Source: Kocuria sp. (GTDB lineage Bacteria; Actinomycetota; Actinomycetes; Actinomycetales; Micrococcaceae). From it: 40,542 bases of DNA. A program made the position numbers and the translations under genes. The stretch is taken from the NCBI RefSeq assembly GCF_030538595.1, contig NZ_JAUNTS010000019.1, forward strand, positions 1-40,542, written 5' to 3'. A model generated the notes under the pieces. That model was not told the origin of the DNA and did not search any database. It was given only the letters and a program-made list of their open reading frames with translations. Positions within the stretch are counted from its first letter, which is position 1, and every line of letters starts with the position of its first letter. Shown piece after piece: positions 9,601 through 39,645 of this stretch.

Positions 9601-10500
9601 ACCGTCCCAGAACTCGCGGAAATTCAGTTCCTCGGCACCCTTGATGTTGGGCACCACCAGGTTGCGGGAGCCATCCTTGTTGGGCAGGTCAATGGCCAGA
9701 CCAAAGTTGACGTGGGCCGGGTGAATGGCCACGGGCTTGCCGTCCTGAACGTCATAGGTCACGTTCATGGAGGGGAAGTTCTTGAGCGCCTTGACCACGG
9801 CATAGCCGATCAAATGCGTGAACGAAACCTTGCCACCGCGGTTACGGGCCAAGTGGGAGTTGATCACAATGCGGTTGTCGATCAGCAACTTGGCCGGTAC
9901 CGCACGGACGGTGGTGGCCGTGGGCACGGTCAGGGAGGCATCCATGTTGGCAGCCACGGCCTTGGCGGGGCCGCGCAGCTTGACAACCTGGTCCTGGGCT
10001 TGGCCCTCATCCTTGGCATCGCGCGCGGTGGATGCTGACGTGATGGATCCTGAGGTTGCGCTGTCCACGGCACCCTTCTTCTGCTGAGCGTCGGTCTTGG
10101 CTGCAGTGTTGCGCTGGTTTGCTGCTGGGGATTCCGCACGTGCTGCCTGCTGAGCTTCCTTGGGCGGCCCCGGCTTGGCCGTGGTGGCCTCATCTGTGCG
10201 GCGCGTGGTTTGGGAGGGGGCACCTGCATCCGCTACGGATCGCTGCTCCTTGGCGGCTCCGCCGTCGGAATCTGCCGCCTGGGGTTTGGCGGTCTTGGTT
10301 CCGGTGGAGGGGGCGGAGTCTGCTGCTGAGCCCGTGGAATCAGCCTCATCCATGGCCTCGAAAATGGACCACCAGTCCTTGTCCACCGTGTTCTTGTCAG
10401 CTCGGTACCTTTTGTAAAGGTCCTCGACGAGCCATTCGTTGCCCGCAAATTCTTCGGGGATCAGGTCTCGTGGTGTGCTCGGCACGTGCCTACGCCTCAT
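6610..10500 (-). CDS. kgd: Multifunctional 2-oxoglutarate metabolism enzyme (2-oxoglutarate dehydrogenase E1/decarboxylase with E2-type acyltransferase domain)
   Basis: This is the fused actinobacterial enzyme of the TCA cycle. It decarboxylates 2-oxoglutarate with thiamine diphosphate and can pass the succinyl group on within the OGDH complex. The 1,296 residues contain: an N-terminal segment (EEFAGNEWLVEDLYKRY, about 15-33) known to bind partners; a long Ala/Thr/Lys linker (about 50-170); an E2-like catalytic domain with DHRVIQG near residue 382; and an E1 part with RVRGHMMADMNPVG, HRGRLNVL near residue 608, and a C-terminal transketolase-like region ending LLEELFDNR. No lipoyl domain is present, as expected. 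The ATG at 10500 has a weak ribosome site; a GTG five codons inside is possible. The gene stands alone, with its own putative promoter at 10602-10631 and terminator at 6559-6596. In relatives the activity is controlled by the FHA protein GarA/OdhI, not seen here. Confidence 0.95.
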   Translation of the reverse strand: MRRRHVPSTPRDLIPEEFAGNEWLVEDLYKRYRADKNTVDKDWWSIFEAMDEADSTGSAADSAPSTGTKTAKPQAADSDGGAAKEQRSVADAGAPSQTTRRTDEATTAKPGPPKEAQQAARAESPAANQRNTAAKTDAQQKKGAVDSATSGSITSASTARDAKDEGQAQDQVVKLRGPAKAVAANMDASLTVPTATTVRAVPAKLLIDNRIVINSHLARNRGGKVSFTHLIGYAVVKALKNFPSMNVTYDVQDGKPVAIHPAHVNFGLAIDLPNKDGSRNLVVPNIKGAEELNFREFWDGYEDMVKRARKGELTMEDYAGTTVSLTNPGGIGTVHSVPRLSKGQAAIIGVGALDYPAEYRGSSPRTLSHNAISKIITLTSTYDHRVIQGAGSGEFLKLVESYLLGDDFWDEIFQGLKVPYEPVRWALDNQVNPETEVNKVARIQQLIHAYRVRGHMMADMNPVGYTMRTHPDLDIRTYGLSLWDLDREWPTGGFGGAPRLTLRTILGLLRDAYCRTVGVEYMHLDTPAEREWFQNELEKGYTKPSRDEQFRILSRLNAAEAFETFLQTKYVGQKRFSLEGGESLIPLLDAVISDAADDNLAGVVIGMAHRGRLNVLTNIAGKSYAQVFREFEGSQDPRGAEGSGDVKYHLGTEGTFTSDSGNQTQVYLGANPSHLEAVDPVIEGVARAKTDVLGAGPEGDGTYPVLPIQVHGDAAMAGQGIVFEVMQMSQLPAYKTGGTVHVVVNNQIGFTTAPEAGRSSTYATDVARTIQAPIFHVNADDPEAVTHVGQLAFAYRQRFNKDVVIDLVCYRRRGHNEGDDPSMTQPLMYHTIEQKRSTRKVYTANLVGRGDISQEEADRALKDYQERLERVFTETHEAQTSDVPLVTGDAAAISNIERPSAQQTDSGISVPRSTGISADKARRIGEAHTDVPEGFTVHRKLTKLLERRAKMTVDGGVDWGMGEIMAFASLMMEGIPVRMTGQDVRRGTFTQRHAVFFDNVNGDEWTPLNHLMDDQAPLAIYNSLLSEYGVLGFEYGYSVERPDALTVWEAQFGDFINGAQTIVDEFVSSAEQKWGQRSSLVMLLPHGYEGQGPDHSSARIERFLTLCAEKNMIVAQPSTPANHFHLLRRQAYSRPRKPLIVASPKQLLRLKAAASPIEDFTSGTFRPVIEDQAGLDPKAVTDVVLVSGRLYYDLAAERAKREDKTTAIIRVEQLYPLPLEEIKAEVARYPEANVEWAQDEPANQGAWPFMAVNLAPELERRIRLISRPASASPANGSAKRHALENETLLEELFDNR

Positions 10501-10601
10501 TCTCTCGTCGTGATCCGGTGACCGTCATTGGTCACTGCGCCCCAGGGTCTGCCGCGGAAAAATTTGCCCCCAGCGGTCAGCGCATGGTCGCACTCCGGGT
10601 C

Positions 10602-10631
10602 AGTCTAGTGTTCAGGGCAACAGACGGCCAA
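10602..10631 (-). promoter_or_regulatory. Putative housekeeping promoter of kgd
   Basis: On the minus strand a TTGGCC (-35; 10626-10631) and TAGACT (-10; 10602-10607) are separated by 18 bp. Both resemble actinobacterial SigA elements. Transcription would start near 10595, giving a leader of about 95 bases. A 6-bp inverted repeat (GTGACC/GGTCAC, 10518-10535) lies within that leader. Confidence 0.4.
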
Positions 10632-10772
10632 CAGGTGCACGGCGGCGGTTCGTCTAGGTTCCGGCCGGACTTGCTCCGCAGCTTGCCTGGAATCAGTACG
10701 ACGTCGCACCGCAGCTCGGCCTGCCACGCCAACGGCCCGTTGCGAACGCCACGAGCAGATGGGCAAGCCCTC

Positions 10773-28994: not shown

Positions 28995-29921
28995 ATGGAG
29001 GCTGCGGCAGAATTGCCGGAGGTGACAGTCGTCATTCCCTTTTACGGCGATCCGGCCCCTGTTGTGGCGCTGGTGGATGAACTTCGGACGTCAGCCCCGT
29101 CCTGTCTGCAACACATTGTGATCAGTGATGACTGCTCACCGGTGCCGTATGAAGTCACTTTTCATCAACCCCAGGATTCTTTACCTCTTGTGACGGTGGT
29201 GCGCAGGGAACGCAACGGAGGTTTTGGGTCGGCGGTGAACACCGGGCTCAGCAGGGTAACCACGCCACTGGCGCTGGTGCTCAACTCGGACCTGGTCATC
29301 ACGGGGGAGCAGATCCGCCAGCTGTTGACTCATCTGCAGGGCTGGCACCCTGTGGTTGCCAGCCCTGCTGTGGCGCATCCGGACGGTACCGAACAATGGG
29401 TGGGTCGGGTATTTCCCACCGTGGGTCATCAGGTCATCGAGTGGCTTTCCCCGTTGGCGCGCTGGCGGCACCTGCCCGCCCTGCACCGAGCCGTTGGCCA
29501 TGACCTCCGGAGCGCCGTTGCCCGGGACGTGTGGGCCGTGGACTGGGTGATGGGAGCAGCCATGGTGTTACCCATGGAGCAGGTCCGTGCCGTGGGTGGT
29601 TTTGATCAGTCCTTCTACATGAATTGTGAGGAGGTTGATCTGCAGCGGCGTCTGCGCCGACTGGGGGTGGCCTCCGTCGTCGTACCTCAGGTGCAGGTCA
29701 CCCACATCGGTGGAGGGTCTTCAGAAAACTCCGTGCGCCGCCAGTGGCTGGTTGACGCACGGTTCCGTTATGCCCAGAAGTGGGGTTCACCTGGCGTCTT
29801 GAGACTTGCATTGCGCACAGCAACGGTCGTGAACTTTCTGGTCAACCAGGTGCGCAGCATTCGCAATGACGATGTTGACCCGCAAGCCATCCTGCGTAAA
29901 GAGTGGGTGCTGCTGCGATGA
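28995..29921 (+). CDS. Glycosyltransferase family 2
   Basis: A 308-residue GT-A enzyme. VTVVIPFYGDP starts the nucleotide-sugar domain, RNGGFGSAVNTGL and LVLNSDLVI (the metal-binding DxD replaced by NSD) follow, and GGFDQSFYMNCEEVDLQRRLRRLG is the acceptor-site region, as in rhamnosyltransferases such as WbbL. The ATG at 28995 after GGGGGG is the sensible start; the upstream in-frame ATG at 28920 adds residues with no family counterpart. First gene of the rightward operon, overlapping the next by four bases. Donor and acceptor sugars are unknown. Confidence 0.88.
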   Translation: MEAAAELPEVTVVIPFYGDPAPVVALVDELRTSAPSCLQHIVISDDCSPVPYEVTFHQPQDSLPLVTVVRRERNGGFGSAVNTGLSRVTTPLALVLNSDLVITGEQIRQLLTHLQGWHPVVASPAVAHPDGTEQWVGRVFPTVGHQVIEWLSPLARWRHLPALHRAVGHDLRSAVARDVWAVDWVMGAAMVLPMEQVRAVGGFDQSFYMNCEEVDLQRRLRRLGVASVVVPQVQVTHIGGGSSENSVRRQWLVDARFRYAQKWGSPGVLRLALRTATVVNFLVNQVRSIRNDDVDPQAILRKEWVLLR

Positions 29922-30940
29922 CCACTGTGCGCCCCGGCGAAAACCTGCTGCTGATTTCGCCTGCTTTCCACGGCTACCACAACTCCATAGCCGCTGGTTT
30001 CAGTCAACTGGGGTACAACGTCCAGACCTATTGCTACGACTCTTTTTCCACGCCAGGAATGAAGCTGCGCAACAAGGCGCTGCTGGAACTGCCTGCCCAA
30101 ATGGGTTTCTCCCGTCAGCAGGCGCGCACCGCATGGGACACCGAGCGTGCGATCAAGGCTCTGCGCGCGGCACGTCCCGATCGGGTGTTGTTGATCAAGG
30201 CCGACACCCTGGGGGAGGAGTTCTGGACTGAGCTCTTGGCATTGAACGTGCCGGTGATGCTGTGGCTCTACGACGATCTTTCACGGCACCACCACACCAT
30301 GGACTTCTTACGTGGAATCGGTCCCGTGATCAGTTACGCCAAGCAGGAGACGCAATTGCTGGCTGATCACGGTGTGGACGCTCACTATCTTCCCAATGGT
30401 TATGATCCCGCCTTGGTCACACCGGTGAAGTCCGTTGGCCAAGAAGTGGTGTTCGTGGGTTCCAGGTATCCCAATCGTGTGGACCTGATGGAGTATCTGT
30501 ACGCCAACGGGGTCCCGGTGAGGGCATACGGGCGGCAGTGGAGCCATCATCCGGTGGACAGGTTGCGGACTTGGGACTGGACCCGGCCGCAGGTTCCGTG
30601 GCACCGGGACATCTCTTTGCGCCAGGCTTATGCCGTTCAAGCACAGGCGGCGGCGGCCATCAATGTGCACGGATTGCAGGCTGGTTTGACCATGCGCACA
30701 TTTGAGGTACCGGGCAACGGTGGCCTGCAGCTGGTGGACCGGGAAGACGTCGCCGAATTCTACGAACCAGGCGCAGAGGTTCTGACTTTCTCCTCCCGGG
30801 AGGAACTGGCTGAACTGTGTCAGCGACTCATTGCAGACCCCCGGTGGGGCGCACAGATCCGCTCCGCGGGCCAACGGCGGTCCCTGGCCGAACACACTTT
30901 TGCCCACCGGGCTCGCACGGCGCAGGGGTGGTGGTCGTGA
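29918..30940 (+). CDS. CgeB-like glycosyltransferase (GT-B)
   Basis: A 340-residue GT-B protein of the CgeB/Glyco_trans_1_2 kind. The N-terminal domain reads LLLISPAFHGYHNSI; the middle has LPNGYDPALV and VVFVGSRYPNRVDL; the C-terminal donor-binding segment has MRTFEVPGNGGLQLVDR, EFYEPGAEVLTFSSREEL and EHTFAHRA, all typical of CgeB-like enzymes. The ATG overlaps the previous stop (ATGA). The sugar is unknown. In other bacteria such proteins decorate spores or capsules. Confidence 0.85.
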   Translation: MTTVRPGENLLLISPAFHGYHNSIAAGFSQLGYNVQTYCYDSFSTPGMKLRNKALLELPAQMGFSRQQARTAWDTERAIKALRAARPDRVLLIKADTLGEEFWTELLALNVPVMLWLYDDLSRHHHTMDFLRGIGPVISYAKQETQLLADHGVDAHYLPNGYDPALVTPVKSVGQEVVFVGSRYPNRVDLMEYLYANGVPVRAYGRQWSHHPVDRLRTWDWTRPQVPWHRDISLRQAYAVQAQAAAAINVHGLQAGLTMRTFEVPGNGGLQLVDREDVAEFYEPGAEVLTFSSREELAELCQRLIADPRWGAQIRSAGQRRSLAEHTFAHRARTAQGWWS

Positions 30941-32097
30941 CAACCACCGGACCGGCTTTCGGCGCGCCGGAAGATCTCCAGGCATGGCGTGCATGGCAGG
31001 CCCGCCAGCAACCACTGCTGCGCCGGGCGCGTCATGCAATCGGCACCTCCGCTGCACCCGTGGTGCACCTGCATCACGACGGCGGCCCCGTCCACACCTT
31101 GGTGGCCTTGGAATCCTTGGGGCCCACCCAACGTGCGGCATTGCTGGAACCCATGCGGTTTGCTCCTGAGGAAACTGGTGTGGCGTATGTGGTGCCGCCC
31201 CACGTGTCCCAGGAGCTCGTTCTGGGATTGGTCTCCAGCCACCATTCCGATTCGGTGCTGCCCACATGGGCGCGCGTGGTGGATTGCCTTCCGGCTGATG
31301 CACCTCTGCCGGCGGTGTTGCGCTCCATGACGGAGGTGTTGGCCGTTGGCAACTATCTGCCATCGGGCCAGGTGGCACATCGGTGGGCGGACGCTGCCGG
31401 CGTGCGGTTCAACGTTGTGCAACATGGATTGCTGGCACATCAAGCACCTCCACTGCCACGTGGATCACACCTGTTGGCCTTCACCGATCAGGACGCTGCG
31501 TGGTGGACCCACGGCCGCACCGACGTCACCACAGAGGTGGTTGGCTCACAACTTCTGTGGAGTGCAGCTGCACAGTCAGCGGTACGGGATGCCGGCCAGA
31601 ATGCGGACCGAAGGCCGGAGGGCCCCGGGGTGTTCTTGGGCCAGTTGCACGGGGCGGAGCTACCGCGCAAGGATTTTGCCGCAGCGGCCCTGCAGTACTG
31701 CCGAGAGACAGGGGCAATGTACCGCCCCCACCCGGCTGAAACGGACAAACTCTCCCGCGCCACGCATGAGCTGTGGCGGCGCAGGGGAGTGCGGATTGAC
31801 ACCTCCGGCCAGTCCTTGGCGGCTGCGATCGGGCCGGTGGCCTCCGTCTTTTCAACGGGAGTGTTGGAAGCAGCCTGTACGGGACGTGAAGCCTGGGTGG
31901 TGCATCCCGATCCGCCTGCATGGCTTCAGGAATTCTGGCTGCGCTACGGCATGAGCCGGTGGAGCCCCGGAACCCCTGTGGAACCAACTCCAGCGCTGGT
32001 GCAGCCCGAGACGGAGCCTGCACGGGCGGTGGCCCGCGCGATTTTTGGGTCCAGCAACGGATCGGCCCAGACCGATCAGAACCGGAAGGTTGGCTGA
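30937..32097 (+). CDS. Unassigned GT-B-like protein, possible nonulosonate transferase
   Basis: A 386-residue soluble protein I cannot place firmly. Features suggest a GT-B fold like capsule polymer transferases: VVQHGLLAHQ in the middle, GVFLGQLHG starting the second half, YRPHPAETD near residue 268, then SVFSTGVLEAACTGREAWVV and PPAWLQEFWLRYGMSRW. The R-x-HP-x-E motif recalls the HP motif of sialyl- and polysialyl-transferases, and the gene is coupled to CMP-sugar synthetase and NeuB genes, so transfer of the CMP-activated sugar is a reasonable hypothesis, not a demonstrated homology. Start: GTG at 30937 overlapping the previous stop (GTGA); the upstream ATG at 30817 lies inside the CgeB gene. 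The TGATG junction links it to neuA. Confidence 0.7.
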   Translation: MTTTGPAFGAPEDLQAWRAWQARQQPLLRRARHAIGTSAAPVVHLHHDGGPVHTLVALESLGPTQRAALLEPMRFAPEETGVAYVVPPHVSQELVLGLVSSHHSDSVLPTWARVVDCLPADAPLPAVLRSMTEVLAVGNYLPSGQVAHRWADAAGVRFNVVQHGLLAHQAPPLPRGSHLLAFTDQDAAWWTHGRTDVTTEVVGSQLLWSAAAQSAVRDAGQNADRRPEGPGVFLGQLHGAELPRKDFAAAALQYCRETGAMYRPHPAETDKLSRATHELWRRRGVRIDTSGQSLAAAIGPVASVFSTGVLEAACTGREAWVVHPDPPAWLQEFWLRYGMSRWSPGTPVEPTPALVQPETEPARAVARAIFGSSNGSAQTDQNRKVG

Positions 32098-32867
32098 TGA
32101 GCATTCTGTGTGTGATCCCGGTTCGTGGAGGGTCCAAGGGTGTGCCCGGGAAAAATATCCGCGATCTCGGGGGCTTGCCTTTGCTCGCCTGGAGCATCCG
32201 ATCCGCCCTGGCGGCAAACTCAGATTTGGACGTGGTGGTGTCCACCGATTCGCCGGAGATCGCCAGCGTGGCACGTGAGCATGGAGCCCAGGTGCCATAC
32301 CTTCGCCCGGCCCACCTGGCGCAGGATGAAACCCCCAGTGAACCTGTGATCGAACATGCCTTGCAGCACTACCGCAACGCGGTGGGTGAACCTGAGGGTG
32401 TGTTGTTTTTGCAGGCCACCAGTCCGTTGCGACTGCCCGGCACCGTGGACCGTGCCGTGGAACAGTTCCGGCGCACGCAGGTGGATTCCCTGGTGGGAGT
32501 TCTGCCGGTGACCCCGTTTTTCTGGCAGCTGCCGGATTCTTCGGCTGAGGGTCAGTCCGCAGACGGTGCGGAAATTGCGCACCGTCAACCCACGGCTGCC
32601 TACGACGTCGAGCATCGACTGCGCAGACAGGACATGACGCCTGCGGACCTGCGGTACCGGGAGAACGGCTCTCTGTATTTGACCCGCCCCGCGATCTACG
32701 ACCAGCACCACAACCGAATCGGGGGCCGGGTGGGCTTGTTCCATCTGCATGATCTGGAAGGTGTGGACATTGACACCGAGTTGGACTTCCGTCTGGCCGA
32801 ACAGATCGTGGCGGACCACGCAGTCACCCTGGACCACGTTCACCCCCACCCCGGAGGTCGCTTGTGA
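32097..32867 (+). CDS. neuA: CMP-N-acetylneuraminate (nonulosonate) cytidylyltransferase
   Basis: A 256-residue enzyme that activates a nonulosonic acid (sialic, legionaminic or pseudaminic type) with CTP. The CTP-binding motif IPVRGGSKGVPGKN starts at residue 7, VVVSTDSPEIA and LQATSPLR follow, and GVDIDTELDFRLAE closes the fold. The ATG shares one base with the upstream stop (TGATG); the longer in-frame reading from 31920 is inside the previous gene. Which nonulosonate it prefers is not readable from sequence. There is an extra loop (SSAEGQSADGAEIAH) around residues 145-165. Confidence 0.9.
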   Translation: MSILCVIPVRGGSKGVPGKNIRDLGGLPLLAWSIRSALAANSDLDVVVSTDSPEIASVAREHGAQVPYLRPAHLAQDETPSEPVIEHALQHYRNAVGEPEGVLFLQATSPLRLPGTVDRAVEQFRRTQVDSLVGVLPVTPFFWQLPDSSAEGQSADGAEIAHRQPTAAYDVEHRLRRQDMTPADLRYRENGSLYLTRPAIYDQHHNRIGGRVGLFHLHDLEGVDIDTELDFRLAEQIVADHAVTLDHVHPHPGGRL

Positions 32868-35119
32868 TGATTATTGAACGCAATCTGACTCCGTACCTGG
32901 TCTTCACCCAGGACTCCATCCTGGTGGCCCTGCGGAAGATGACCGAGAACACGGAACGCGTGGTGTTCTGTGTGGACACCCACGGGCACCTGCACGGATC
33001 CATTTCTGATGGAGATTTTCGCCGGTGGATCGTGGCCAATCCCAATGCGGATCTGGACGTCTCCGCAGCGGTGGTGGCAAACCGCCAAGTGGTCAGTCTG
33101 CCGCTGGGATCGCGGGCAGAGGAGATCGCAGCAGCGCTCCCGGCAGGCGCGTCACACCTGCCACTGCTGGATGAACGCGGCCGGTTGGTGGCACTTGCCA
33201 TCAACCGGGCAGCCGAACTGCGGATTGGCCAGCATGTGATCGGCGCAGGTCAGCCTGCCTTTGTGATCGCTGAAATCGGCAACAACCACAACGGTTCCGT
33301 GGAACTTGCCCGCGAGCTGGTGGACCTGGCGGCAGATGCCGGGGCCGATGCGGTCAAGTTCCAGCTGCGTGACATGGATGCCCTGTATCGGCAGAGGGGC
33401 ACAGCAGGCGAGGACTTGGGGGTTCAGTACACGCTGGACCTGTTGGCCAAGGTCTCCCTGAGCGCGGATCAGCTGATCCCGGTCTTTGACCATGCCAGGG
33501 ACCGCGGTGTAGCAGTGATGTGCACCCCCTGGGACGGCCCCAGCGTTCAAGTCCTGGCTGACTACGGGATTGACGGACTCAAAATTGCGTCCGCAGATCT
33601 CACCAACCATGAATTGCTGCGGGACGCAGGCTCCAGAGGTTTGCCCATGATCCTTTCCACCGGCATGAGCCGCGAGGAAGAGATCCGTGAGTCAGTCAGC
33701 CTGGTGCGATCACTCGGCGTGGCATTTGCGCTGCTGCACTGCCAGTCCACGTACCCAGCACCTTTCAAGGACATCAACCTGGCTTACCTGGACCGGCTGG
33801 CGTCCATCGGTGGGTGCCCGGCAGGCTACTCCGGGCACGAGCGTGGCATTCATGTGCCGGTGGCTGCTGTGGCTCGCGGCGCGGCGGTGGTTGAAAAACA
33901 CTTCACCGTGGATCGGCAGATGGAAGGCAATGACCACAAGGTCTCCTTGTTGCCGCAAGAGTTCGCGCAGATGGTCGCTCAGATCCGGGATGTTGAACTG
34001 GCCCTGGGACACGCGGGTGAACGTCAGGTTTCAACCGGCGAGGCCATGAACCGCATCACCTTGGCCAAGTCCTTGGTGGCGGCCCACGAATTGTCCGTGG
34101 GGGATGTCATCACCGATCAGGACGTGGCGGTCAAGAGCCCCGGGCGTGGACTGCAACCCAATGCCAGGGCGCAGTTGGTGGGCCGCACCCTGCACCGTGA
34201 CATGGCTGCCGGGGATTTCTTCTTTGAAGGTGACTTGCAGGAGAAGCTGCCGCAGGCAAGAGCATTCGACTTTGACCGCCCGTGGGGCTTGCCGGTGCGT
34301 TATCACGACATTGCCCCGCTGACCTCTGACACCCAACCCGATTTTCTGGAGTTCCACTTCTCCTACAAGGACTTGGAGATCCAACCTGACCAGGTCATGG
34401 GTGAACAGCTGACTGGGCGCAACATCAAAGCCTTCACCACGCACCTCCCTGACTTGTTCGCCGGTGACTTCCTGGTGGATCTGGCCTCAACGGATGAGGA
34501 CCACTGGCGGCGATCCATTGCAGAAGTCCAGCGCACCATTGATGTGACGCGGGATCTGGTCAAATGGTTCCCCCATGCCCAGGAGGATCCACTCATGGTG
34601 GTCACCATGGGCGGTTTCACCACGGACCGTCACGTCAGCGCACCTGAACGCGGCCCAAAGTACGAGCGGATTGCCCAGTCTCTGCAACACTTGGACACCT
34701 CTGGAGTGCGCCTGGCAGCGCAGACGTTGCCACCGTTCCCGTGGCTCATGGGTGGTCAGCAGTTCCACAACCTGTTCATGGATCCCACGGACACAGCTGA
34801 TTTTGTCCGGTCCACCGGCTTGGGGTTGTGCTTGGACGTGTCTCACTCCAAATTGGCAGCCACATTTCTGGGCATTCCGTTCTCCGAGTTGGTCCGCCAA
34901 CTGGCGCCGCTGACAACGCACTTGCATCTGGTGGATGCCGTGGGCGTTGACGGTGAGGGTGTTCAGGTGGGGGATGGGGACGTTGACTGGCCCGTGTTGG
35001 CCGAACAGCTCAATGAACTGGCCCCAGGTGTGCCGTTCATCCCAGAAATTTGGCAGGGCCACATCAACAGCGGTGCCGGGTTCTGGACCGCACTGGAGCG
35101 ACTGGAACAGTGGCTGTGA
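32864..35119 (+). CDS. Four-domain nonulosonate synthase: CBS pair, NeuB, SAF, xylose-isomerase-like TIM barrel
   Basis: A 751-residue fusion. Residues about 8-120 are a CBS pair (SDGDFRRWI). NeuB, which condenses phosphoenolpyruvate with an N-acyl-hexosamine to make the nine-carbon acid, spans about 130-390: AEIGNNHNG, DAVKFQLR, KIASADLTN, ILSTGMS, YSGHERG and EKHFTVD, including the metal-binding His residues. The SAF/antifreeze-like domain (about 395-465: LAKSLVAAHELSVGDVIT, SPGRGL) closes the active site in partner chains. Residues about 475-751 form an AP-endonuclease-2/xylose-isomerase-type barrel with putative metal residues in CLDVSHSKLA, HLHLVDAVG and IPEIWQGH. That last domain may be an isomerase or epimerase supplying the substrate. 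GTG at 32864 overlaps neuA (ATG at 32867 also possible); GGAGGT precedes both. Confidence 0.88.
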   Translation: MMIIERNLTPYLVFTQDSILVALRKMTENTERVVFCVDTHGHLHGSISDGDFRRWIVANPNADLDVSAAVVANRQVVSLPLGSRAEEIAAALPAGASHLPLLDERGRLVALAINRAAELRIGQHVIGAGQPAFVIAEIGNNHNGSVELARELVDLAADAGADAVKFQLRDMDALYRQRGTAGEDLGVQYTLDLLAKVSLSADQLIPVFDHARDRGVAVMCTPWDGPSVQVLADYGIDGLKIASADLTNHELLRDAGSRGLPMILSTGMSREEEIRESVSLVRSLGVAFALLHCQSTYPAPFKDINLAYLDRLASIGGCPAGYSGHERGIHVPVAAVARGAAVVEKHFTVDRQMEGNDHKVSLLPQEFAQMVAQIRDVELALGHAGERQVSTGEAMNRITLAKSLVAAHELSVGDVITDQDVAVKSPGRGLQPNARAQLVGRTLHRDMAAGDFFFEGDLQEKLPQARAFDFDRPWGLPVRYHDIAPLTSDTQPDFLEFHFSYKDLEIQPDQVMGEQLTGRNIKAFTTHLPDLFAGDFLVDLASTDEDHWRRSIAEVQRTIDVTRDLVKWFPHAQEDPLMVVTMGGFTTDRHVSAPERGPKYERIAQSLQHLDTSGVRLAAQTLPPFPWLMGGQQFHNLFMDPTDTADFVRSTGLGLCLDVSHSKLAATFLGIPFSELVRQLAPLTTHLHLVDAVGVDGEGVQVGDGDVDWPVLAEQLNELAPGVPFIPEIWQGHINSGAGFWTALERLEQWL

Positions 35120-36327
35120 ACATGACCGCCGATCCGCAACCACCTGGCCGCACTGCACACTCGGGTCCTGCGACGGCGCCGGGGCCCCCGGATCCGCTGG
35201 CCCTCTGGGTGGTCCCCGTGGGCGAGCTGGCAGGCGTGGGCCGTCATGTACTGGACGTGGCCACTGCTGGTTTACCAGGTCTGCGGTTGTTGGTGCTGTG
35301 TCCGGAAGGTCCGTTGGCACATGCCCTCCGTGACGTTGGGGTCGGCGTGATCGTGGCGCCATTCGGACCTGAGGCGGGGCTGCACCAATCCATCCGGCAG
35401 TTGCGATCTGTTGTCCACACCTTGCGTCCCGCTGTGGTCCACACCCATTTGGCTTATGCGGACCTGGTGGCTGCTGTGGCCTTTGCCGCCGACCGCCGGG
35501 TGAAATTGATCTCCACCGAACACGGGATCGCCCAGGACGATCTGGTGTATCACGGCAGTGCCTCACGATCCTGGGCCAGGGCCCGGTTGCATTCGCTGCG
35601 CCTACGCCGCTTTGATGCTCTCATTGCGGTTTCTGAATCAACCAGAGAAACCATGGAACACAAGTGGCGTCCGTCTCAGCCCATTCACGTGATCCGCAAC
35701 GCGGTGAACGTGGACGGCCTCACGTCCGTGGCGCAGCATCGCCTGGCCACCCGCAATCCAGCCGGACCGCGCATTCTCTCCCTTGCACGACTGGCCCCGG
35801 AGAAGCGGATTGATGCCCTGCTGCACGCAGTTCCGTTCATCGTGCAGCAATGCCCGGCAGCTACGGTCACGATTGCGGGAACCGGCCCAGACTTGGCTGT
35901 GCTTCAACGCCTCACAACGCACCTGGCGATTCAGGACGTGGTGCACTTTGTGGGCTTTGTGGACTCCCGAGAAGCCTTGGCGGAGAACGATGTTGTGGTG
36001 CAGCTGTCCACCTGGGAAAACCTCAGCTACACGCTGCTGGACGCGCAAGTCTCCGGCATGGAAGCGGTGGCCACCAACGTGGGTGGGAACGCAGAGATCT
36101 TGCCCCCGGACTCGCTCATATCGGACCTCAGCCCGCAGGCGGTGGCAGCTGCGGTGCTGGGCGCCTGGGAGCGGGCGCAGGACGGCCATTCGGCGCGGGG
36201 TGGCCACACAAAGCAGGACAGGCGACCGTTCGACGACGGCGGCGTGGCGTACATGACCGAACAGATCAGCTCAGTCGCTCTGGCACTGCTGCCGTCATCC
36301 AACACATTTCAGGAGGCGGGCGCATGA
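35116..36327 (+). CDS. Glycosyltransferase family 4
   Basis: A 403-residue GT-B enzyme. After a Pro-rich start, the N-domain has VGELAGVGRHVLDVA and VVHTHLAYADLV, STEHGIAQDD, and ALIAVSESTRETM. The C-domain has RILSLARLAPEKRIDALL, IAGTGPDL, VVHFVGFVDSREALAENDVVV and the retaining-GT motif SYTLLDAQVSGMEAVATNVGGNAEIL. In that motif a Gly-Met replaces the common G-x-PVVA. The start is the GTG overlapping the previous stop (GTGA). Coupled to the NeuB gene. Sugar unknown. Confidence 0.88.
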   Translation: MNMTADPQPPGRTAHSGPATAPGPPDPLALWVVPVGELAGVGRHVLDVATAGLPGLRLLVLCPEGPLAHALRDVGVGVIVAPFGPEAGLHQSIRQLRSVVHTLRPAVVHTHLAYADLVAAVAFAADRRVKLISTEHGIAQDDLVYHGSASRSWARARLHSLRLRRFDALIAVSESTRETMEHKWRPSQPIHVIRNAVNVDGLTSVAQHRLATRNPAGPRILSLARLAPEKRIDALLHAVPFIVQQCPAATVTIAGTGPDLAVLQRLTTHLAIQDVVHFVGFVDSREALAENDVVVQLSTWENLSYTLLDAQVSGMEAVATNVGGNAEILPPDSLISDLSPQAVAAAVLGAWERAQDGHSARGGHTKQDRRPFDDGGVAYMTEQISSVALALLPSSNTFQEAGA

Positions 36328-37574
36328 GCACGACTGTGTCTCAAGCCGCGGCACCTCGTGGTGCAGCCACGCTGACGGGGCGTTTCATGCCGGTGGGAAA
36401 GCACGCGTGGCTGGAAGCGGCCCGATCCGAGAGGACGCGGTGGATCACCGCGTTGCTGGGTTTCTTCCTGGTCATGGATGGCGGTGACATGTCGTGGTGG
36501 CCGCTGCAGCAACCGCCGGCCCAGTTCGCCCTGGCAGGGTTGGCTTTGATTGTGCTCCTGACGCTCGGTGCTCCGGCCCGCGGTACATGGCTCCTGGTGG
36601 TGGCACTGGGCGCCATCATGAGCGTGGTGCTGATTTCCACGGCGTTGTCGGGAAACTTCATATGGACACGGTTGGGCACCATCAGCGCCTGGATTCTGCT
36701 GATGTACGGCGTGGCCCGGGGGGCTCTGTCCATGGGATCGCTGGCACGCGGTATGGGCCTGGGCCTGTTTGTCAGTGTGATCTACGGCGTGGTGACGCTG
36801 GAATCGTCGTCGTACACGGGCCGTCTGACCGGTCTTCTGGGGGATCCGAACACCGCAGGGTTGGCGCTGGTGACCCTGGGCCTGATCGCCATGCTGTTCC
36901 TGCGCAGACGGTGGATTCGCTGGGTTCTGGCACTCACAGTGGTGGCCGGTGTGATCCTGACGGCTTCAAGAACTTCCATGCTGGCGCTGGGCATTGCCGC
37001 TGTGGTGATTCTCATCGGACATCGTCTGCACCCGTTGGTGGTCACTGCTCTGGTGTGGATCAGCGTTTGGTGGCTGTCCGAAACCACACAAACCGGGGCC
37101 AGCGCCGGCAGTGCATGGTATGAACGTGGATTCTTCCTGGACCGTGAAGGCAGTGACATCCTTCGGTCACAACTGGCGTCCTTGGAGGAACACAAACGCA
37201 TCACGGGCGGTCTTTTCGGACATGGTCCGGGTGAGGCCCATGTGATGCTGGATGACACCGTTCAGATGTTCTCCCACAACAGCTATTCGGCATTCCAACT
37301 GGAGTTCGGACAGTTGGGCATGGCCGCGCTGATGCTGTTGGGCTTGGTCCTGTTCTGGCGCTACACCCGGCGTAGCGTATACCGGGATCCGACCATGAGC
37401 TGGGCCGCAGCTGCAGTGGCCGCAGCGGTCGTGTGTTCCGCCAGTTTGGGAGAGTCGCTGCTCACGCCGTCGGGGGCAGTGGCTGCGGGAACCTTGATCT
37501 TGGTTTCACGTCACGCACGCATCCGTCCGGACCGGCCCACCCAACCTGGTGAGGGTCAGTGGGTGAGAGTGTGA
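36324..37574 (+). CDS. Wzy/O-antigen ligase-like polysaccharide polymerase
   Basis: A 416-residue integral membrane protein with about ten to eleven hydrophobic segments, of the Wzy_C/O-antigen ligase type. It would join lipid-linked repeat units on the outer face of the membrane. Features: GLLGDPNTAGLALV and ILTASRTSMLALG in the middle, then the large outer loop with GGLFGHGPGEAHVM and FSHNSYSAFQLEFGQLGM, where GxGxG and HNSY are family hallmarks. The ATG overlaps the previous stop (ATGA). Pairing with the Wzz-kinase marks a Wzy-dependent pathway. Confidence 0.88.
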   Translation: MSTTVSQAAAPRGAATLTGRFMPVGKHAWLEAARSERTRWITALLGFFLVMDGGDMSWWPLQQPPAQFALAGLALIVLLTLGAPARGTWLLVVALGAIMSVVLISTALSGNFIWTRLGTISAWILLMYGVARGALSMGSLARGMGLGLFVSVIYGVVTLESSSYTGRLTGLLGDPNTAGLALVTLGLIAMLFLRRRWIRWVLALTVVAGVILTASRTSMLALGIAAVVILIGHRLHPLVVTALVWISVWWLSETTQTGASAGSAWYERGFFLDREGSDILRSQLASLEEHKRITGGLFGHGPGEAHVMLDDTVQMFSHNSYSAFQLEFGQLGMAALMLLGLVLFWRYTRRSVYRDPTMSWAAAAVAAAVVCSASLGESLLTPSGAVAAGTLILVSRHARIRPDRPTQPGEGQWVRV

Positions 37575-38659
37575 AGGTCTACCTCTTGGCCAATCATGCC
37601 GTGATGGGCGGGGGCGAAGTCATGTTGCTCAACACAGCTGAAGCGTTGCGCGATTTGGGCCACGACCCCCACGTGGTGTGCCCAAGTGAACCATATGAAC
37701 TGGCGCAGGCGGCGCGTGTTGCTGGATTTGCTGTCACAGTGATTCCTGGCGGGGATGGTTGGGCTTACCTGGTGCGGCTGCGCCTGTGGGCGCTCCGGCA
37801 CCGCCACGAGCTCATGTGGTGCCACGGCTTGCGCCCCAGCCTGGCACTGGCCGGGCGCACGCATCGGTTTGTGCATCTGCACCAAATCCCCACCGGAGTT
37901 CAGCGCCGTATGGCCTCGGTGGCTCGGTGGCGTGCCTCACGGGTGTTACTCCCCTCAGAGTGTGCTGCGGCCCGAGTTCCAGGTGCTCAATCTTTTCGGA
38001 ACTGGACGACCTCACCTGCCCTGAGAGCAGCGGCGAAAGGGCCGAATTCAGAAACTAGCGCACGCATGACTCCACCTTTCACTTTCGGGTACCTGGGCCG
38101 CATCAGCGCCGATAAAGGAGTTGGAGTTCTGGTGGAGGCCTTTGCTGCGCTCCGTGGCGGTGTGGAGGACCGGCAGAACGTTCGCCTCATGGTGGCTGGG
38201 GAACCCAGGTTCACGAACGTTGATGAAGGCGCAGAGCTTCTTGCGTCACTGAAGTCAGAGCCAGGTCTCTCCGTAGTGGGTTGGGTGGAGGCAGGCCCTT
38301 TCCTGGAGTCCGTGGATGCAGTGGTGGTTCCATCTGTGGCTCCGGAGAGTTTCGGCCTGGTAGCAGCCGAGGCCATGGCTGCCGGAGTGCTGGTGATTGC
38401 CTCTGATGCGGGTGCGCTGCCGGAGGTTGTGGGTTCCGTTCACCCACTGTTGACTGCTGCTGGCGATGCCGGAGTGCTTGCCCACACCATGCAGAAGACC
38501 ATGGAGCTCTCTGACCAGGAGCGCACGAGGATTTCCGGCGAACAGTTGAAGAGGTGGCTCGCCCTGTGGTCCCCGCAGGCTGGGCGGCAGCGGGTAGCCG
38601 AGATCTTGGGCGTGCCGTTGGCAACACACGACTCCAATGGATACGAGATGCGGCTATGA
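37571..38659 (+). CDS. Glycosyltransferase family 4
   Basis: A 362-residue GT-B enzyme. N-domain: VYLLANHAVMGGGEVMLLNTAEAL, CHGLRPSLALAGRTHRFVHLHQ and VLLPSECAAARVPG. C-domain: FTFGYLGRISADKGVGVLVEAF, VVGWVEAGPFLESVDAVVVPS and the donor-binding APESFGLVAAEAMAAGVLVIASDAGALPEVV with two glutamates seven residues apart. The GTG at 37571 overlaps the previous stop (GTGA) and gives MKVYLLANH; a GTG at 37559 adds four residues. Sugar unknown. Confidence 0.88.
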   Translation: MKVYLLANHAVMGGGEVMLLNTAEALRDLGHDPHVVCPSEPYELAQAARVAGFAVTVIPGGDGWAYLVRLRLWALRHRHELMWCHGLRPSLALAGRTHRFVHLHQIPTGVQRRMASVARWRASRVLLPSECAAARVPGAQSFRNWTTSPALRAAAKGPNSETSARMTPPFTFGYLGRISADKGVGVLVEAFAALRGGVEDRQNVRLMVAGEPRFTNVDEGAELLASLKSEPGLSVVGWVEAGPFLESVDAVVVPSVAPESFGLVAAEAMAAGVLVIASDAGALPEVVGSVHPLLTAAGDAGVLAHTMQKTMELSDQERTRISGEQLKRWLALWSPQAGRQRVAEILGVPLATHDSNGYEMRL

Positions 38660-39645
38660 CCTCTACACAATCCGGAGAGCTAGAGGCACAGTCTCAAAAC
38701 CTGCCGAGGGTGGCCATCACGGTTCCATCGCGCGGGGGTGCCGATCATCTCCCCCGACTCCTGCAGGCTCTGGCCCATCAGCAAAATGCGCCTGCATTCC
38801 AGGTCCATGTTGTCCTGGACGGGGACATTGACAATTCCGAATCAGTGCTTGGCCAACAGGCCCAGAAGTGGCCGGAGCTTGATCTGAGCTGGACCGTGTT
38901 CCCGGAGAATCGGGGGAGGGTAGCTGCGCTCAATCACGCCGCCCAAGCAACCACCGGAACCATTCTTGTTCGCTGTGACGATGACCTGGAACCAGGTCCC
39001 GACTATGTGCGAGCCCATGCACAGGCCCACGCCCACGGTGAGCCACGGGGCGTCGTCGGGCTCTATCTCAACCGGTACCCGGACACCCACTACGCACGTG
39101 CTTACGGACGCACAGCAGACGTCAAATTCCGTAGCGAAGCCTATGACTCCACTGCTGCCACGCGATGGCGGTACTGGGCCGGCAATGTTTCCGTACCCCG
39201 CCAGGTGTTCGACCAGCTGGGTGGTTATGAATCCGCTTACCGGCGCTACGGCTGGGAAGACGTCGATTTTGGCTACCGACTGCACGCTGCAGGTTTCCCC
39301 GTAGTGGTATTGCCGGAACTTGAGACCCCGCATTATGTAGCAGCCACCACCACCCAGGTACGCACGGCCCGTGCATTGCACTCGGGTGCTGCACGGGACA
39401 CTTTCACCCGCATCCACGGCGAGCAGGCACACCCCCTGCGCCTGCCCCGTGGCCTGTGGGGCAGGGCAGTGCGCGTGGGTGCTGCCGTCCTCAACGTCCG
39501 CACCTTGGACGCAGTCAGCCGATGCGTTGACCGTGCCCTGCCGATCCTGCCTCCGTGGATTGGTACCAAAAGTGTGGCGTTCCTTGTGGAGTCGGCCGGG
39601 CTGGCCGGGTCCTTGCATCCGGAGAGAGCACGTGAGACCTTCTGA
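38656..39645 (+). CDS. Glycosyltransferase family 2
   Basis: A 329-residue GT-A protein. VAITVPSRGGADHLPRLLQAL begins the nucleotide domain (about residue 18), RGRVAALNHAAQATTGTILVRCDDD contains the DxD (CDDD), and GGYESAYRRYGWEDVDFGYRLHAAGF is the acceptor/galactosyltransferase-like C-domain. The last 60 residues are weakly hydrophobic and of unclear role. The ATG overlaps the previous stop (ATGA); the in-frame ATG at 38554 is inside the previous gene. Sugar unknown. Confidence 0.88.
   Translation: MTSTQSGELEAQSQNLPRVAITVPSRGGADHLPRLLQALAHQQNAPAFQVHVVLDGDIDNSESVLGQQAQKWPELDLSWTVFPENRGRVAALNHAAQATTGTILVRCDDDLEPGPDYVRAHAQAHAHGEPRGVVGLYLNRYPDTHYARAYGRTADVKFRSEAYDSTAATRWRYWAGNVSVPRQVFDQLGGYESAYRRYGWEDVDFGYRLHAAGFPVVVLPELETPHYVAATTTQVRTARALHSGAARDTFTRIHGEQAHPLRLPRGLWGRAVRVGAAVLNVRTLDAVSRCVDRALPILPPWIGTKSVAFLVESAGLAGSLHPERARETF

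Follow-up and report, generated by a model that had tools for sequence, protein, structure and literature searches.

A conserved NeuB-family fusion with a CBS pair and a xylose-isomerase-like barrel in a Kocuria polysaccharide locus

Domain organization of the fusion gene

The stretch of DNA analyzed here (the window) consists of the 40,542 nucleotides of contig NZ_JAUNTS010000019.1 from Kocuria sp. (assembly GCF_030538595.1), and its forward strand carries, at 32867..35119, a gene in which a CBS pair, a NeuB synthase, a SAF domain and a xylose-isomerase-like barrel are fused, as delineated from Pfam matches, start signals and homologues. The translated open frame (32864-35119) runs for 751 codons with no inner stop. 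Four Pfam domains score above cut-off within it, in the order CBS (residues 13-57, E 1.5e-5), NeuB (152-384, 2.9e-77), SAF (402-453, 9.6e-9) and AP_endonuc_2 (496-743, 1.7e-21), bearing out an earlier sequence-only reading in which one frame joins all four parts. The frame opens with GTG 32864, and ATG 32867 is a second candidate start. Because the ATG overlaps the TGA of the upstream cytidylyltransferase gene by one base and GGAGG lies ahead of it at 32853-32857, it is more likely to be the start than the GTG, and the fusion protein is therefore probably 750 amino acids long.

All four parts lie on the + strand. The CBS pair (residues 13-114, motif SDGDFRR) occupies 32900..33205 and the NeuB catalytic barrel (residues 133-384), placed by Pfam, NCBIfam and alignment to a solved NeuB, occupies 33260..34015. 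The SAF (antifreeze-like) domain follows at 34067..34222, and the xylose-isomerase-like barrel (residues 469-751) at 34268..35116.

Conservation and distribution of the fusion

An assembly artefact was considered as the source of the fusion and rejected, because full-length homologues with 57-80% identity (best segment) occur in other genomes, which also confirms the earlier belief that long NeuB-family proteins of similar build exist elsewhere. A genome scan returned 16 loci in Kocuria, Microbacterium, Brachybacterium, Dermabacter, Helcobacillus, Janibacter and others, at 57-80% identity; one of these ends at a contig edge and two have broken frames. Frame breaks lie in the barrel in record G408 and in both the NeuB domain and the barrel in G409. 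This was a single scan of genome contigs with patterns from one protein, so that groups outside Actinobacteria are under-sampled. A plasmid of Ensifer canadensis encodes a 784-residue protein of the same CBS-NeuB-SAF-barrel build. NeuB-SAF-barrel proteins lacking the CBS pair are encoded on four IMG/VR contigs, of which three are near copies of each other, and in record G341, where a cytidylyltransferase gene adjoins.

The comparisons below use an aligned set of 23 fusion proteins from Actinobacteria, the Ensifer plasmid and viral contigs. Left out of it were L014 and L016 (frame breaks), L015 (contig end), L017 (a near copy of L005), L025 and L026 (near copies of L024), L021 (a part-length match in G338) and L022 (a weak match of 36 bits in G152).

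NeuB matches at E <= 1e-30 occur in 117 of 394 genomes of the class, and identity drops from at least 62% in the home and five further clade genomes to at most 46% in the others. The barrel lies beside NeuB in all five further clade genomes and in none of the 24 other NeuB loci read, the class sample having been read for the barrel in the best 30 of the 117 NeuB-bearing genomes with about 1.5 kb of flank each. In a tree of the 23 fusion and 24 barrel-less NeuB domains, the fusions all fall on one side of a branch with support of 99/91, found in 98% of 200 bootstrap trees. Placement is unsure because of long branches, above all that of G341.

A profile of the barrel (A2) matched four of 396 phylum genomes at E 1e-10, three times within fusions and once at part length (G338), and the barrel was not found in these genomes as a common stand-alone protein. 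In the G338 match (L028, 5595-6002), the second barrel half alone is recognizable, with Glu at the position of Gln620 of the window protein, in frame with unrelated sequence. One plasmid record matches the window's barrel; 98 match the G341 fusion protein at E 1e-20, one of which covers at least 80% of it. Among phage records, none matches the window's barrel, and three match the L027 protein, none covering 80%. Neither the G341 nor the L027 protein brought up further relatives when used in viral scans, and a second alignment scan returned the same contigs.

The NeuB and SAF domains

The NeuB (259.8 bits) and SAF (36.1 bits) matches both exceed the Pfam cut-offs and place the protein in the NeuB superfamily (PF03102 plus SAF). 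In a structural comparison of the full model, only NeuB and related synthases were among the matches listed. As judged from its sequence, the enzyme type, a NeuB synthase, is secure. NeuB_NnaB ranks first in NCBIfam, below cut-off; the score is 304.7 bits against a cut-off of 399.65 for the N-acetylneuraminate synthase equivalog (TIGR03569), and 226.9 against 340.25 for the pseudaminate synthase equivalog (TIGR03586).

Site residues were mapped by hand on an alignment to Neisseria meningitidis NeuB. In the site for phosphoenolpyruvate (PEP) and the metal, E137, Q167, K240, Y297, S323, H325, E344, H346 and D357 (seven listed residues and two further ones) are identical in 23/23 proteins, and an eighth listed residue, T221, in 22/23. 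Other positions are changed. Compared with N. meningitidis NeuB (1xuu/4ipi), the fusion has, besides its additional CBS pair and barrel and its score below the TIGR03569 cut-off, Ser425 in place of Arg314, within the KSPGRG motif of the SAF domain, Trp223 in place of Phe112 and Ser295 in place of Asn184, each in all 23 fusions. The place of Phe288 (399) is taken by small or polar residues, and that of Asn74 is uncertain in the alignment.

According to the available part of PMC6795526, Arg314 is the only SAF residue that directly contributes to the NeuB active site, and its interactions with N-acetylmannosamine (ManNAc) might position the N-acetyl group; its references include one on that enzyme under the title 'Arg314 Is Essential for Catalysis'. 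Since this residue is Ser in 23/23 fusions, ManNAc held in the manner of classical NeuB is an unlikely acceptor. Among the 24 non-fused NeuBs, Arg occupies the position in three, and the aligned stretch stops short of it in the other 21. The 24 come from actinobacterial loci (L041-L064), and the 21 with this early end of the NeuB match possibly represent a SAF-less NeuB clade, or just short alignments.

The C-terminal barrel

Profile and structure comparisons, which the sequence-only reading had recommended for the barrel, placed AP_endonuc_2 above cut-off and yielded a fold like that of ketose 3-epimerases. The PDB neighbors include 2zvr, 5h1w and 3wqo, at 11-19% identity in structural alignments. 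Pfam score and fold agree on PF01261, and the barrel thus belongs to the ketose-epimerase/aldose-isomerase superfamily by both sequence and fold. The barrel has 283 positions, of which 45 do not vary across the 23 proteins; 23 of these 45 carry charged or polar residues. The mean identity to the window protein is 0.595 for the barrel, 0.599 for SAF and 0.654 for NeuB. The Glu-Asp-His-Glu metal site of the family would correspond to Gln620, Asp658, His688 and Glu728. The last three of these candidate ligands are invariant in 23/23, and the first is Gln rather than Glu in 22/23, G341 having the Glu form.

The CBS pair

Two tandem CBS motifs are recognizable, the first above the Pfam cut-off. The second half lies outside the Pfam match and is seen in weak-scoring alignments that span both halves, to GutQ (residues 13-114, below cut-off) and to solved CBS pairs. 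Of the solved chains, MgtE and a CBS protein rank highest; the best-listed are 2yvy (E 0.0032) and 2rc3 (E 0.0041), and 4o9k follows at E 0.047. The last is named arabinose 5-phosphate isomerase, and its entry reportedly holds CMP-Kdo, the cytidine monophosphate (CMP) form of ketodeoxyoctulosonate (Kdo). GutQ is also the best CBS-bearing NCBIfam match of the window protein (6e-5, far below cut-off). The CBS pair is present in 18/23 proteins, with the motif [ST]DGD[FV]RR[WY]. By analogy, we infer that its ligand may be a CMP-nonulosonate.

The gene string and its neighbors

The fusion gene belongs to a tightly coupled string on the + strand, made up of transferase, cytidylyltransferase, fusion and glycosyltransferase genes. 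The cytidylyltransferase (32097..32867), PseF/KdsB-like below equivalog cut-offs and predicted to make the CMP-sugar, begins with an ATG that the stop of the preceding transferase gene (TGA 32095-32097) overlaps by one base, and its own stop (TGA 32865-32867) overlaps the fusion ATG by one base. Two bases past the fusion stop, ATG 35122 is a start codon of the downstream gene (35122..36327), which encodes a GT4 glycosyltransferase. The association recurs elsewhere. In 19 of 20 records, no more than about 1.1 kb separates a cytidylyltransferase match (PF02348) from the NeuB match of the fusion; in the viral record G411 the distance is about 6 kb. In the five further clade genomes, the cytidylyltransferase gene is directly 5' of the fusion in three, is about 2.4 kb before it in G670 and was not found on the 6-kb fusion contig of G745.

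The transferase gene (30937..32097, start uncertain, longest frame from 30817) encodes a predicted GT-B protein with an HP motif (YRPHP) and an FSTG motif, both kept in 14/14 homologues. No Pfam or NCBIfam family matched it above cut-off. Because its HP motif resembles that of bacterial CMP-sialic-acid transferases, it is a candidate CMP-nonulosonate transferase, and possibly represents a new family of such enzymes.

Pfam matches and locus comparison further assign a glycosyltransferase (Glyco_trans_1_2) to the same string at 29903..30940, and GT4 and GT2 glycosyltransferases of the conserved polysaccharide locus to 37559..38659 and 38554..39645. Of 21 loci set side by side, 13-15 share several glycosyltransferase genes and one whose sequence resembles that of a chain-length kinase. 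In the viral locus L024, the frame directly 3' of the NeuB-barrel gene and overlapping it (9829-10752) encodes a protein of the dihydrodipicolinate-synthase/N-acetylneuraminate-lyase family (KdgD 5.5e-21, dapA 5.6e-20, both below cut-offs).

Supply genes

The earlier remark that the window holds no NeuC-like gene was confirmed, and the home genome has a single PF02350 match, on contig C1, the window being on C17. This protein scores 455.6 bits as WecB (cut-off 210.15) and 91.4 bits as NeuC (cut-off 235.9), and a NeuC elsewhere in the home genome was accordingly rejected. Neither the home genome nor the surroundings of the fusion in related genomes yielded a neuC gene. Among 17 related cellular genomes, for two of which completeness is known, seven have no protein above the PF02350 cut-off, one of the seven being just 77% complete. 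In the other ten, the match, to the family that takes in both NeuC and WecB, is on a different contig (seven) or at least 300 kb from the fusion (three). The pathways of legionaminic (Leg) and pseudaminic (Pse) acid do not employ NeuC in the same way, and for this reason the absence of NeuC alone is weak evidence.

A dehydratase match (PF02719) of at least 40 bits was not found within 5 kb of the fusion in the non-viral records; the match in G406 reaches 21.4 bits, and in G341 and G404 the short contig does not allow a fair comparison. Two of the three stand-alone NeuBs in these genomes (G401 and G402) have a strong PF02719 dehydratase about 2.5 kb away, as expected for Leg/Pse pathways.

A proposed pathway and its alternatives

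We tentatively propose, giving the idea slightly less than an even chance, that the fusion is a single-chain, feedback-regulated synthase of a nonulosonate resembling ketodeoxynonulosonate (Kdn), in which the barrel isomerizes a ketose to the acceptor aldose. The NeuB domain would condense PEP with an aldose, a step well supported by homology. The acceptor would be a simpler hexose-type aldose rather than ManNAc held in the usual way, giving a Kdn-like product, and the barrel may be a metal-dependent ketose-aldose isomerase making that aldose, perhaps mannose from fructose or the corresponding 6-phosphates, with the PEP-driven condensation pulling the isomerization forward. The CBS pair may bind the CMP-activated product of the translationally coupled neighbor and thereby throttle the enzyme, as has been suggested for the CBS pair of the KdsD/KpsF isomerases in the Kdo pathway. 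Two genes would then suffice to turn a common ketose into the CMP-nonulosonate used in a surface polysaccharide, the upstream HP-motif gene encoding the likely transferase. The suggestion in the sequence-only reading that the barrel supplies the hexosamine thus survives in part: the superfamily match, the invariant positions and the failure to find NeuC favor a supplying role, while the replacement of Arg314 by Ser425 makes ManNAc an unlikely acceptor.

Known systems offer partial parallels. In the Kdo pathway, an isomerase with a CBS pair (KdsD/KpsF/GutQ) likewise feeds a PEP-dependent keto-deoxy-sugar synthase, and the CBS pairs are similar. These arabinose-5-phosphate isomerases have the SIS fold and are separate from the synthase, whereas the isomerase-like part of the fusion is joined to it. 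Unlike the D-tagatose/L-ketose 3-epimerases and MJ1311 (2zvr, 5h1w, 3wqo), the fusion barrel has Gln for one ligand/base Glu and is attached to NeuB. The available part of PMC6200933 describes Kdn-9-phosphate synthases from B. thetaiotaomicron (BT1714) and P. parvum that act on mannose 6-phosphate, a separate phosphatase dephosphorylating the product; PEP and a mannose-type acceptor are what we propose for the fusion too. That part mentions no fusion, and the likeness is one of the chemistry described.

Several observations weigh against this proposal. The expectation that a working barrel keeps its metal ligands across homologues holds for Asp658, His688 and Glu728, but the first-ligand Glu, present in the nearest solved relative, MJ1311, is Gln620 in 22/23 proteins. 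In 3-epimerases that Glu is both ligand and base, and the barrel could, to judge from this substitution, therefore be impaired or be doing other chemistry. The CBS pair is missing from 5/23 proteins, and its best match in Ensifer is to HhpR (2.4e-9), KpsF and GutQ scoring less well (about 4e-8). Trp at 223 and Ser at 295 also occur in 21/24 and 22/24 non-fused NeuBs; these changes are thus not fusion-specific, and in the alignment only Ser425 is particular to the fusions sampled here. The neighbor control holds for two of three stand-alone NeuBs, G398 having no PF02719 match nearby, and in the viral record G412 a PF02719 match of 147 bits follows the fusion at a distance of 2.5 kb. Finally, Kdn is present in Streptomyces walls according to the available part of PMC11481543, yet all 24 other NeuB loci read in the class sample lack the barrel, so that Kdn in itself probably does not require one.

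The barrel might instead act after the condensation, epimerizing, isomerizing or dehydrating the nonulosonate, so that a stereoisomer or a deoxy form of it would go on to be activated with CMP. Its PDB neighbors are ketose 3-epimerases and NeuB products are 2-keto sugars, the superfamily includes epimerases and dehydratases, and the constant pairing with NeuB in the five further clade genomes would suit such a role. We nevertheless consider it unlikely: C3 of a nonulosonate is CH2 and hence offers no target for 3-epimerization, and Gln620 breaks the two-Glu set of epimerization in 22/23 proteins. That same substitution, together with the broken frames of G408 and G409, could be taken to mean that the barrel is a non-catalytic remnant retained for assembly or regulation. 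This is quite unlikely, as the invariant positions, about half of them charged or polar and including Asp658, His688 and Glu728, span viral, alphaproteobacterial and actinobacterial proteins, and the barrel is about as conserved as SAF, though less so than NeuB.

It is very unlikely that the barrel makes ManNAc from N-acetylglucosamine or a relative, standing in for NeuC in a route to ordinary N-acetylneuraminate. The failure to find NeuC in the home genome or locus and the first rank of NeuB_NnaB, albeit below cut-off, would fit, but we know of no precedent for 2-acetamido epimerization by this fold. Moreover, the ManNAc-interacting Arg314 (available part of PMC6795526) is Ser in all fusions, and the Phe288 position is changed as well; because of the former, a barrel that makes a different aldose is the likelier option. 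A sugar-phosphate or pentose/heptose substrate leading to another 3-deoxy-ulosonate such as an octulosonate, the barrel then working as an isomerase of the arabinose type, would echo the Kdo pathway (CBS-bearing isomerase, PEP synthase, cytidylyltransferase with KdsB-family similarity), but is improbable for a synthase of the NeuB rather than the KdsA family, in gene clusters where, partly annotated as they are, no phosphatase of the haloacid dehalogenase (HAD) type was recognized.

Implications

The fusion is a real, conserved NeuB variant that is uncharacterized as far as our searches reach; the titles and abstract openings of the open-licence PMC papers retrieved contained no description of a NeuB-isomerase fusion, though one may exist in print. 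Building on the Kdn-type synthase proposed above, one may go further and picture a fused isomerase-synthase inhibited through its CBS pair by its own CMP-product, such that two genes make a CMP-nonulosonate out of a ketose of central metabolism, with no need of NeuC or Leg/Pse supply enzymes, in bacteria and, in CBS-less form, in the hosts of some viral contigs, with the Glu-to-Gln change marking a single-base isomerase derived from a 3-epimerase-like barrel. This extended picture is rather doubtful. Genome-based prediction of nonulosonates commonly relies on finding NeuB alongside NeuC or the supply genes for Leg/Pse, a rule by which a clade with its own isomerase-like domain would be overlooked or mis-annotated as N-acetylneuraminate synthase. 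If the proposal is true, these organisms would make an acidic surface sugar by a compact route that carries its own allosteric switch, and the fusion would be a handy enzyme for making Kdn-type sugars.
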